Shown here: piece after piece, positions 24,404 through 47,864 of the stretch | Numbering within the stretch: position 1 is the stretch's first letter | Layout of the letters: every line of letters starts with the position of its first letter | NCBI RefSeq assembly: GCF_026109735.1 | Contig: NZ_CP069620.1 | Span: 1,798,001 to 1,862,000, forward strand | Source: Salinimicrobium tongyeongense | GTDB taxonomy: Bacteria; Bacteroidota; Bacteroidia; Flavobacteriales; Flavobacteriaceae | Reading direction: 5' to 3' | DNA length: 64,000 nucleotides | The notes under the pieces: model-generated | Databases searched by the model: none | What the model saw: the letters and a program-made list of their open reading frames with translations, nothing else | What the model was told of the DNA's origin: nothing | Program-made: the position numbers and the translations under genes

Positions 24404-24445
24404 TATTTAGTATTGAATACTTAGTATTGAGTACTGAGAATTAAT
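24404..24445. repeat. Degenerate heptanucleotide tandem repeat after pyk
   Basis: Directly after the pyk TAA the sequence splits into 7-mers: TATTTAG, TATTGAA, TACTTAG, TATTGAG, TACTGAG, AATTAAT. Comparable 7-nt-period repeats start after the stops at 46908 and 58765. Confidence 0.75.
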
Positions 24446-45806: not shown

Positions 45807-45903
45807 GTTTTAACATAAATTTAAGATAATTTGGTTGAATATTTGCTGAAGTTGCGCCGTTGACTATAGATAAGTATCTTCACCTAAATAAAATTTTTTA
45901 CCA

Positions 45904-46908
45904 ATGCAGGAAAACAACAGCTCGGTAGACATAGCCAGTATCAATGAAAAAATTGAGCGCGAAAGTGCCTTTGTTGATATTTTAAGTTCAGAAATGAAGA
46001 AGGTCATTGTGGGCCAGAAGCATATGGTTGAACGTCTGTTAATTGGCTTACTGGGCCAGGGGCATATACTTCTGGAAGGAGTTCCGGGGTTGGCAAAAAC
46101 CCTTGCCATCAACACCCTGTCTCAGGCGGTGCACGGTAGCTTCAGCCGTATACAGTTCACGCCCGATCTACTTCCGGCAGATGTGGTGGGTACGCTCATT
46201 TATAATATGAAGCTGAATGATTTCAGCATAAAAAAAGGCCCCATCTTCGCAAATTTCGTACTTGCCGATGAGATCAACAGGGCACCTGCCAAAGTGCAGT
46301 CGGCTTTGCTCGAAGCCATGCAGGAAAAACAGGTGACCATTGGGGAAGAGACTTTTGTGCTCGATAAGCCATTTCTGGTAATGGCCACTCAAAACCCGGT
46401 GGAGCAGGAAGGAACCTATCCGCTGCCTGAAGCCCAGGTTGACCGTTTTATGCTTAAAACCGTCATTAAATATCCCGAAATGGCCGATGAGCAGATGATC
46501 ATTCGCGCCAATTTAAAAGGCAGTTTTGAAAAGGTGAACCCGGTAGTGAGCCTGGATCAAATTGCCCGCGCCCAGCAATCGGTGCGAGAGGTGTACATGG
46601 ATGAAAAGATCGAAAAATATATCCTTGATATCGTTTTTGCCACACGTTTTCCTGAAAAATACAGGCTTGAGAGCCTGAAGCCTCTTATCAATTTTGGTGC
46701 TTCCCCGCGGGGAAGTATCAACCTGGCAACGGCGGCAAAATGCTACGCCTTTATAAAGCGCCGCGGCTACGTGGTGCCCGAAGACGTGCGTGCCGTGGTG
46801 CACGATGTGCTTCGCCACAGGATTGGGATCACCTACGAAGCCGAAGCCGAAAATGTAACTTCCGAAGATATCATCAACAAGATCGTAAACGAGATTGAAG
46901 TACCTTAA
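45904..46908 (+). CDS. MoxR-family AAA+ ATPase
   Basis: Chaperone-like ATPase of 334 aa that opens the Bat operon. Walker A is GVPGLAKTLA, Walker B LADEINRAPAKVQ, and the sensor region is MATQNPVEQEGTYPLPEAQVDRF. MoxR proteins act with VWA-domain partners, here the DUF58, BatA and BatB proteins downstream. The gene is followed by a 92-bp gap made of a 7-nt-period repeat, after which the DUF58 gene begins. Confidence 0.94.
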   Translation: MQENNSSVDIASINEKIERESAFVDILSSEMKKVIVGQKHMVERLLIGLLGQGHILLEGVPGLAKTLAINTLSQAVHGSFSRIQFTPDLLPADVVGTLIYNMKLNDFSIKKGPIFANFVLADEINRAPAKVQSALLEAMQEKQVTIGEETFVLDKPFLVMATQNPVEQEGTYPLPEAQVDRFMLKTVIKYPEMADEQMIIRANLKGSFEKVNPVVSLDQIARAQQSVREVYMDEKIEKYILDIVFATRFPEKYRLESLKPLINFGASPRGSINLATAAKCYAFIKRRGYVVPEDVRAVVHDVLRHRIGITYEAEAENVTSEDIINKIVNEIEVP

Positions 46909-46999
46909 ACAATGAACAATTAACAATGAACAGAATTGAACATCTGTCACCTGTTAATTAGTTACTGATAATTGTTTATTGATCATTGTCAATTGAAGA
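46909..46999. repeat. Heptanucleotide repeat filling the MoxR-DUF58 gap
   Basis: From the first base after the stop, the gap splits into 13 units of 7 nt: ACAATGA, ACAATTA, ACAATGA, then less regular units. It ends in CTGATAA, TTGTTTA, TTGATCA, TTGTCAA, TTGAAGA. The late units are roughly the reverse complement of the early ones, so the whole can fold into an A/T-rich hairpin within the operon. Confidence 0.8.
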
Positions 47000-47000
47000 A

Positions 47001-47864
47001 ATGGATACTAAGGAGTTACTCAAGAAAGTTCGAAAAATAGAGATCAAGACCCGCCGGCTGAGTGATCACATCTTTGGCGGGGAATACCACTCTACCTTTA
47101 AGGGGCGTGGAATGACTTTTAGCGAGGTGCGCCAGTATCAGTTTGGGGATGATGTAAGGAATATTGACTGGAATGTTACTGCCCGCTATTCTGAACCTTT
47201 TGTAAAGGTGTTCGAAGAGGAGCGGGAGCTCACCATGATGCTGGTGGTAGATGTTTCCGGCTCTGGCCTGTTTGGTACCCGCAACGGGTTCAAGCAGGAT
47301 ATTATTACTGAAATTGCCGCTACTCTGGCATTTTCGGCTACCCAGAACAACGATAAGATCGGGCTCATCCTGTTCTCCGATATCATTGAGCTTTATATTC
47401 CGCCTAAAAAGGGACGTTCACATGTGCTTCGGATTATTAGAGAGCTGTTGGAATTTGAGCCTAAAAGTCAGAAGACCAATCTCGAAAATGCGCTCAGTTA
47501 CCTTTCGCGCGTGATGAAGAAAAAAGCCATTGTTTTTGTGCTTTCCGATTTTATTGCTGAAGATTATCAGCGTACGCTCAAGATCACCAGCGGCCGGCAT
47601 GATGTTACCGGTATCCGGGTTTATGATGAGCGCGAAGAAGAGATACCAAACCTTGGAATGGTGGCCATGCAGGATGAAGAAACCGGGAAAAGGATACTTG
47701 TAGATACCTCTTCAAGGTCGGTGCGCCGCAACTATGCTAAATATTACCACGAGAGAGTGGAGTATTTTAGCGAGAGCTTCCGCAGAAGTGGGGCAGGAAG
47801 CCTTAGCACCCGTGTAGATGAAAGTTATGTAAAAAAATTACTGGGCTATTTTAAAGCCAGATAA
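47001..47864 (+). CDS. DUF58 domain protein (Bat operon)
   Basis: A 287-aa cytosolic protein of the DUF58 family. The VWA-like core has FGDDVRNIDWNVTARYSEPFVKVFEEERE and the metal-site-like VVDVSGSG (DxSxS). ATG 47001 is chosen; a TTG at 46986 would extend into the heptad repeat. DUF58 proteins are constant partners of MoxR ATPases in Bat/aerotolerance-type clusters. It is followed by a two-TM protein gene 10 bp later. Confidence 0.9.
   Translation: MDTKELLKKVRKIEIKTRRLSDHIFGGEYHSTFKGRGMTFSEVRQYQFGDDVRNIDWNVTARYSEPFVKVFEEERELTMMLVVDVSGSGLFGTRNGFKQDIITEIAATLAFSATQNNDKIGLILFSDIIELYIPPKKGRSHVLRIIRELLEFEPKSQKTNLENALSYLSRVMKKKAIVFVLSDFIAEDYQRTLKITSGRHDVTGIRVYDEREEEIPNLGMVAMQDEETGKRILVDTSSRSVRRNYAKYYHERVEYFSESFRRSGAGSLSTRVDESYVKKLLGYFKAR

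Follow-up and report, generated by a model that had tools for sequence, protein, structure and literature searches.

Mirrored 7-nt repeat arrays in the gap between moxR and the DUF58 gene of Salinimicrobium and at other operon junctions of Flavobacteriaceae

REP/BIME elements are palindromic, extragenic, high-copy families of alike sequences with a linked RAYT transposase. The STRR of cyanobacteria are heptanucleotide repeats in tandem direct arrays and, to our knowledge, are not tied to particular operon junctions. In the following we write out in full, as Gramella, a genus name that we take to lie behind an abbreviated species name.

The TAACTGA heptamer repeats (MacGregor 2015; PMC4679880), according to the parts of that paper used here, are mostly intergenic, often near gene starts, in five Bacteroidetes, and consist of a single unit in direct copies that are not predicted to form an RNA structure by themselves. 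The same parts mention 'other heptamer direct repeats' in gaps of Gramella forsetii and Aequorivita, note that close relatives have shorter gaps in which no repeat is obvious, and refer to long simple sequence repeats (LSSR). The ribosome termination structure (RTS) is a sequence-independent mRNA structure directly after the stop codon in many bacteria (Chemla et al. 2020; PMC7518266). In the portions of the paper used here, it is reported to be depleted on average after first and middle operon genes, enriched behind terminal ones, and to reduce re-initiation at the gene that follows. We compare with these systems a gap in the window (the whole 64,000-nt stretch of Salinimicrobium tongyeongense DNA that was analysed).

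The moxR-DUF58 gap in the window and the genus

The gap occupies positions 46909-47000 (92 nt), between a MoxR-type AAA ATPase gene and a DUF58 gene with its ATG at 47001 (Table 1). A reading made from the letters and open reading frames of the window (the sequence-only reading) had described a mirrored heptamer repeat starting at the first base after the stop with ACAATGA, ACAATTA and ACAATGA. These units are present, followed by ACAG. The 7-nt period and the reversed right side were also borne out; the extent was overstated. Instead of period 7 over 13 units, we found three to four units on the left (three of them clean), a unique middle of ~17 nt and about six degenerate units on the right, where TRF returned rows at 46951-46989 and 46966-46996. 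The right part, said to be nearly the reverse complement of the left, is so at 75-88% over arms of 16-28 nt. The lag-7 match fraction of the gap (0.565) was equalled by 0 of 5000 dinucleotide shuffles, in agreement with the claim that the period is unlikely by chance. The hairpin that had been proposed is also predicted by folding: the minimum free energy (MFE) of the gap alone was reached by 64 of 2000 shuffles and, when the gap was folded with its flanks, 12 of 200 shuffles were equally low (z = -1.83).

Table 1. Features of the moxR-DUF58 gap and its flanking genes, in window positions
Feature	Positions	Strand	Basis and remarks
MoxR-type AAA ATPase gene	45904..46908	+	Upstream neighbour; ORF; Pfam AAA_3 1.1e-64, AAA_lid_2; stop TAA 46906-46908
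Left arm, forward heptamers ACAATGA ACAATTA ACAATGA ACAG	46909..46933	+	Sequence, inverted repeats, TRF
Unique middle (inner loop region), ~17 nt	46934..46950	+	Sequence, inverted repeats, fold
Right arm, left-arm unit type reversed, degenerate	46951..46996	-	Inverted repeats, TRF
Predicted mRNA hairpin, from first base after MoxR stop	46909..46989	+	MFE -19.3 kcal/mol, gap alone
Short unpaired stretch ahead of DUF58 start codon	46990..47000	+	Fold of gap alone
DUF58 protein gene (VWA_2)	47001..47864	+	Downstream neighbour; Pfam DUF58 3.4e-85; start codon kept in relatives

Rfam 15 covariance models gave no match in 46700-47200 at E up to 1. The dyad symmetry of the gap resembles that of operators, and one weak sigma-70-like match is present. 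However, promoter-like matches at the gap are at shuffle level (1 vs 0.9), no intrinsic terminator (G+C-rich stem followed by a T run) was found in 46800-47100, and the same layout occurs at rpoB-rpoC and atpD-atpC (see below), junctions at which a terminator would presumably carry a high cost. It is therefore highly improbable that the gap acts as a terminator, promoter or DNA operator within the operon.

Two other stretches of the window deserve mention. A second 7-nt array, of TATTGAG-type units in one direction, lies at 24404-24442 in a convergent gap, directly before a G+C-richer stem. Upstream of MoxR, the stretch at 45860-45883 (around ATAAGTATCTTCAC) can also be seen upstream of MoxR in five Salinimicrobium loci (L113-L117), and is possibly part of the operon promoter or leader.

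The genus sample consisted of 12 Salinimicrobium genomes including the window's own, 11 of them with a full-length DUF58 gene. A mirrored ACAATTA-type array was present at nine of the 11 loci (L111-L119), in gaps of 81-100 nt with the same stop and start, and the DUF58 start ATGGATACT is common to all nine. The two loci without the array (L120 and L121) are the most distant (88 and 82% identity). A comparison of relatives for changes in unit number had been proposed; in the nearest relative (G004) the left arm is longer by 8 nt, a difference that we read as one 7-nt unit plus one base.

In the consensus fold of the nine gaps, the CAAT cores of the left arm pair with the ATTG cores of the right arm. 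Standard pairs fill 149 of the 153 cells of the alignment, with one both-sided change; since most pairs are invariant, the alignment carries little information on pairing as such. Core columns were 99.1% identical among the nine species with a core mask derived from the same alignment (the mask shifted by 1 to 6 columns gave 0.89, 0.86, 0.77, 0.72, 0.84 and 0.87), arm spacers 72.8%, the inner part 64.9% and four-fold sites of the 100 codons flanking the gap on either side 54.3%; the unit-to-unit alignment of repeats may inflate all these figures. Whole-gap identity for Salinimicrobium was 0.743, with 0.609 for shuffled gaps and 0.507 at four-fold sites. By the same mask, 23 of 24 core columns and 11 of 25 spacer columns were invariant. 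At two loci (L031 and L033) we noted by eye that two reversed segments are each a possible partner of the left arm, so that competing inner and outer hairpins are possible.

Arrays elsewhere in the genome were surveyed in 400 kb plus the window (~464 kb). Eleven of 101 same-strand gaps of 40-250 nt, the MoxR gap included, had a lag-7 match above shuffles at z7>3, as did 4 of 31 convergent gaps; many unit families are represented, and by eye most arrays run in one direction. In samples of two other genera, 4 of 112 and 0 of 106 same-strand gaps reached z7>3, and the moxR-DUF58 gaps of these genera do carry arrays (z 5.1 and 4.7). The proposed search for ACAATKA arrays gave six exact two-unit matches, two in the window array and four elsewhere (reversed control 1), and not the many alike copies of a REP family. 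Three-unit matches with up to 3 mismatches numbered 24, several of them in the window array (reversed control 14), and none of the matches read was a near-identical copy of the CAAT array. The idea that each genome uses one unit family does not hold: the MoxR gap here is of CAAT type and the rpoB-rpoC gap of the same genome of CAGT type. Mirrored CAGT arrays also occur at two further sites in this genome (L332 and L335; C1:2205565 and C1:3064568). They are near-identical to each other, and each lies in one copy of a longer duplication whose copies are themselves almost the same (score 2717 in a local alignment).

The sequence-only reading had suggested that the repeat is slippage-born or mobile. 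The 8-nt length change and the other arrays in the genome argue for the former; a mobile element did not find the same support. Relatives that repeat the same bases free of a 7-nt indel, in a genome free of other arrays, are not what we found.

Period 7, unit families and replacement at the orthologous gap

Named relatives were the best 80 of 574 candidates from a DUF58 search, the top three being Salinimicrobium (94-97% identical), in agreement with the assignment of the window to that genus. Gaps were cut in 90 of 91 named and genus loci (L076 left out; four duplicates among the 90), and lag 7 exceeded shuffles at z>2 in 72 of them. Among the named loci, 53 of 76 moxR-DUF58 gaps reached a lag-7 match of 0.42 or more, vs 7 of 67 other same-strand gaps.

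A more even sample was drawn from 149 genomes, one per genus (148 genera), of which 147 had DUF58. After typing of 122 places and removal of 10 for low completeness, the first 100 of 112, ranked by similarity to the window protein, were taken with ~10 kb each; 93 were parsed, giving 92 gaps of at least 40 nt. Period 7 was found in 53 of these 92 genera (z7>2; 50 and 52 in reruns with fresh shuffles), compared to 5 of 92 for z6>2 and 4 of 92 for z8>2. The other gaps of 40-200 nt within these 10-kb stretches served as controls, and z7>2 held for 15 of 152 same-strand, 2 of 58 divergent and 0 of 23 convergent ones. Predicted folding was less discriminating: fold z<-2 was reached in 39 of 92 moxR-DUF58, 51 of 152 same-strand, 14 of 23 convergent and 4 of 58 divergent gaps, with a mean fold z of -1.68 for moxR-DUF58 vs -1.21 for other same-strand gaps. 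The moxR-DUF58 gap is distinguished by period and mirror layout, not by fold strength. In a fold set of 83 gaps (four duplicate gaps removed), the largest paired domain covered at least 75% of the gap in 57 cases, vs 36% of shuffles, and began a median of 1 nt past the stop.

Outside Flavobacteriaceae, the gene was present in 89 genomes of a phylum sample, of which 40 were fetched and 25 parsed. Two of the 12 gaps of 40-200 nt had z7>2, and one locus of the same class (L434) carries a clear mirrored array. In this small outside sample of 12 gaps, the pattern is concentrated in Flavobacteriaceae.

Heptamer arrays were also seen beside this junction. One-directional AAAGT-type arrays lie ~865 nt downstream of the DUF58 start at four loci (L084, L089, L091 and L162), in the next gap of the same operon. 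At L110 and L183, about eleven near-perfect tandem copies of TTCACTA occur ~2.1-2.4 kb upstream of the DUF58 start (lag-7 match 0.94 at L110; z 13.7 at L183).

Approximate word-based rules sorted the gaps at 179 loci into CAGT (47), GATT (25), AATTG (10), AGTT (10), CAAT (10), G-rich (7) and REP-like (7) types and a short type (14), with 49 gaps falling into none of these. Across the CAAT, CAGT, GATT and AATTG families, left-hand units run forward and right-hand units backward. In 40 non-redundant CAGT gaps, a type assigned partly by the CAGT/ACTG words themselves, the left half contained 119 CAGT and 9 ACTG, and the right half 1 CAGT and 154 ACTG.

Whole-gap identity, given as gap, shuffled gap and four-fold sites, was 0.626, 0.560 and 0.381 for CAGT; 0.707, 0.596 and 0.463 for CAAT; 0.679, 0.587 and 0.393 for GATT; and 0.821, 0.667 and 0.408 for AATTG. 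Once the alignment baseline is allowed for, whole CAGT and CAAT gaps show no clear excess over four-fold sites. The AATTG gaps look better conserved.

A FastTree phylogeny of joined DUF58 and MoxR sequences (178 loci; 38 of 165 inner branches well supported) required 82 changes of gap-type label, compared to a shuffled mean of 109, indicating that the types are clustered. Label changes among the repeat and palindrome classes alone numbered 45. Replacement of the gap was clear in 2 of 13 aligned pairs. Confluentibacter citreus and C. flavum have 300-nt flanks that are 92 and 90% identical (97 and 98% in the nearest 60 nt), with gaps at 0.52 vs 0.55 for shuffled sequence; L164 and L070 have flanks at 97 and 94%, with gaps at 0.53 vs 0.53. 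Other pairs of different type are less clear (for example L084/L092, 0.63 vs 0.57).

Replacement of this kind could point to mobile palindromic elements (REP or MITE-like) inserted repeatedly at gene ends, with the arrays as decayed copies. Some gaps are indeed REP-like (GTCATTCC...GGAATGAC) or G-rich palindromes, and at rpoB-rpoC the long gaps resemble the short ones with a palindrome added. However, the genome matches read included no near-identical copy of the CAAT array, and of the mirrored CAGT sites read there, the two that are near-identical sit in a longer duplicated segment. We consider this origin unlikely.

The pairing of the two arms was analyzed by swapping arms between gaps (four duplicate gaps removed). 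In 63 mixed gaps of the 'other' class, arms paired better with their own partner (-14.2 kcal/mol) than with swapped partners (-10.3 kcal/mol; 0 of 2000 permutations), suggesting that both arms switch family together. Swaps within a type revealed no fine co-adaptation of arms in CAGT (own -25.4 vs swapped -26.7 kcal/mol), CAAT (-21.5 vs -23.8), GATT (-14.2 vs -14.5) or AATTG (equal). Own arms were even slightly worse for CAGT and CAAT, with 1950 and 1942 of 2000 permutations lower. Within types, own partners thus had no advantage over swapped ones, and perfection of the palindrome by copying from arm to arm is unsupported.

The lack of fine pairing covariation, together with conserved cores and freer spacers, would be consistent with cores that are bound as single strands by an RNA-binding protein of the cold-shock, S1 or a similar kind, the mirror being secondary. 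Such a protein was proposed for the TAACTGA repeats in the parts of MacGregor's paper used here (PMC4679880). However, the cores differ by lineage (CAAT, CAGT, GATT and others), and the CAGT word stands on the left with its reverse complement on the right, a mirror that single-strand binding does not need. Protein binding is accordingly quite improbable as the primary role.

Mirrored arrays and hairpins at other operon junctions

Mirrored CAGT arrays (exact pattern) were found in 36 of 149 genomes, vs 1 of 149 for the reversed control; 54 of the 149 genomes have direct arrays of four CAGT units. We read 33 mirrored sites (30 loci cut from the genome survey and three sites of the window's own genome). 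Thirty lay in same-strand gaps and three beyond the gene caller, while the same-strand share of control gaps was 152 of 233. The 30 sites fell at moxR-DUF58 (7), sufC-sufD (6), atpD-atpC (5), rpoB-rpoC (3, one from the window's own genome), nqrD-nqrE (3), trpD-trpC (2) and other junctions (4), with one site per named junction confirmed by HMM (for moxR-DUF58 that of the window) and the rest identified by eye from gene ends. The sequence-only reading had suggested that the gap tunes expression between the ATPase and its DUF58 partner. A MoxR-specific role is rejected, as the layout recurs at other junctions; because it does so at rpoB-rpoC, atpD-atpC and sufC-sufD, a role at the mRNA level is plausible that would not be specific to the ATPase and DUF58. 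The gap may still tune MoxR/DUF58 expression in this general manner.

Three of these junctions were analyzed in the 30 best-scoring loci each for rpoC, atpC and sufD (of 140, 144 and 147 genomes with a match), a sample that favours arrays since all queries came from array-bearing genomes. We parsed 28 rpoB-rpoC, 30 atpD-atpC and 30 sufC-sufD gaps. Their lengths are bimodal, either short (at most 37, 29 and 13 nt, respectively) or at least 55, 42 and 59 nt. Short gaps made up 6 of 28 at rpoB-rpoC (30-37 nt), 10 of 30 at atpD-atpC and 8 of 30 at sufC-sufD. Among the long gaps, fold z<-2 was reached in 19 of 22, 18 of 20 and 15 of 22, and period 7 was present in 4 of 22, 15 of 20 and 17 of 22, respectively. 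The rpoB-rpoC hairpins are mostly ordinary stems, often leaving ~30 conserved nt ahead of rpoC. This A/T-rich stretch, the last ~30 nt before rpoC (L338-L367), is conserved in many of the 28 parsed genera, whether a hairpin precedes it or not.

Gaps with heptad period reached fold z<-2 in 15 of 15 cases at atpD-atpC, 12 of 15 at sufC-sufD and 4 of 4 at rpoB-rpoC; two background sets gave 4 of 17 and 3 of 11. At moxR-DUF58, 26 of 52 did so and 26 of 52 fell short. Gaps without the period reached this threshold in 50 of 135 and 21 of 69 background cases and in 12 of 40 at moxR-DUF58.

Bridging of stop and start, whereby the hairpin would shorten a long gap, fails as a general mechanism at rpoB-rpoC and atpD-atpC. 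At moxR-DUF58 and sufC-sufD, the median unpaired outer distance was below that of shuffles (11 vs 17.2 nt and 13.5 vs 17.5 nt, respectively), and at rpoB-rpoC and atpD-atpC it was above that of shuffles (28.5 vs 16.8 nt and 18 vs 15.6 nt, respectively).

Proposed origin and comparison with known systems

The best explanation at present is that opposed 7-nt arrays are born by slippage and kept mirrored since a hairpin after a mid-operon stop is useful; we put its probability at roughly 0.45. It draws on the computed period, mirror layout and predicted hairpin, on their recurrence across genera and families, on gap replacement and on the conserved cores within the genus. The gap would be an intercistronic mRNA hairpin made of two opposed arrays of 7-nt units, in which 4-nt cores (CAAT on the left, ATTG on the right) would pair while the 3-nt spacers vary. 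Both the birth of arrays and their later changes would be due to 7-nt slippage and wholesale replacement, and the mirrored layout would be retained at moxR-DUF58 and a few other mid-operon junctions. In cells, the hairpin would have to form and be selected, probably through an effect on translation: a stem directly after the upstream stop that leaves the next start region free would suit translation, and might halt ribosomes that run on or scan and prevent spurious starts within a long spacer. Alternatively, the benefit may be a spacer that stays folded and protected from nucleases.

The 7-nt step, the length change and the many unit families argue for slippage-born material. A neutral account would go no further: slippage and strand switching would make arrays and palindromes in any spacer, harmlessly, and the hairpin would have no role. 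Arrays of many families in other same-strand and convergent gaps of the genome (11 of 101 and 4 of 31) fit this account, as do the 8-nt difference between close relatives, the similar fold strength at moxR-DUF58 and in other same-strand gaps (39 of 92 vs 51 of 152) and the relatives with short, hairpin-free gaps. However, period 7 is concentrated at particular junctions (53 of 92 vs 15 of 152), the mirror there is strict whereas background heptad gaps are seldom hairpins (4 of 17 and 3 of 11), and the cores are nearly invariant in the genus (with the mask read off the same alignment). Slippage alone does not account for the place and the mirror layout. We regard the neutral account as possible but doubtful.

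With respect to a hairpin kept by selection, our trust is lowered by the fold strength at moxR-DUF58, which is near that of same-strand controls. This near-background folding, together with the short hairpin-free gaps in relatives, is the main evidence against a necessary role.

Tentatively, and with something short of an even chance, the junctions may belong to one 'ladder hairpin' family in Flavobacteriaceae: 4-bp rungs every 7 nt after mid-operon stops (moxR-DUF58, rpoB-rpoC, atpD-atpC, sufC-sufD, nqrD-nqrE and trpD-trpC), with layout and position conserved and the letters swapped wholesale between close relatives. If so, selection would act on repeat architecture and be blind to sequence. 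A selected hairpin of this kind would be a non-coding element kept by its layout (7-nt step, mirror and place) and not by its sequence, and searches for RNA families based on sequence would therefore miss such elements. It would also bear on how long spacers between genes of core complexes are handled in bacteria that rely little on Shine-Dalgarno pairing. If neutral, the gaps would still allow the natural turnover of palindromes and 7-nt repeats to be followed at fixed places across many genera.

Compared with known systems, the window array shares with the TAACTGA repeats its intergenic place near a start codon and its 7-nt step. It differs in that its units are ACAATKA, mirrored, lineage-dependent and predicted to form a hairpin, and are not direct TAACTGA copies. 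A heptanucleotide step and slippage-like growth are common to STRR/LSSR, which in contrast are tandem direct. REP/BIME elements are likewise palindromic and extragenic, whereas here the letters differ by site and the layout and step are common. As with RTS, the window gap folds better than most shuffles directly past the stop (by shuffle MFE of the whole gap). In contrast to the mid-operon depletion given in the portions of PMC7518266 used here, the present hairpins lie between genes of conserved operons and, if selected, would run contrary to that average trend. The main text of PMC7518266 has no 'palindrom', 'bacteroid' or 'flavobacter' and uses 'repeat' in other senses, and so gives no mirrored 7-nt make-up; titles and abstracts of the open-licence PMC literature yielded no description of mirrored heptamer hairpins at these junctions. 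In conclusion, a hairpin after a mid-operon stop is known in kind, and its build from mirrored heptamers is new.
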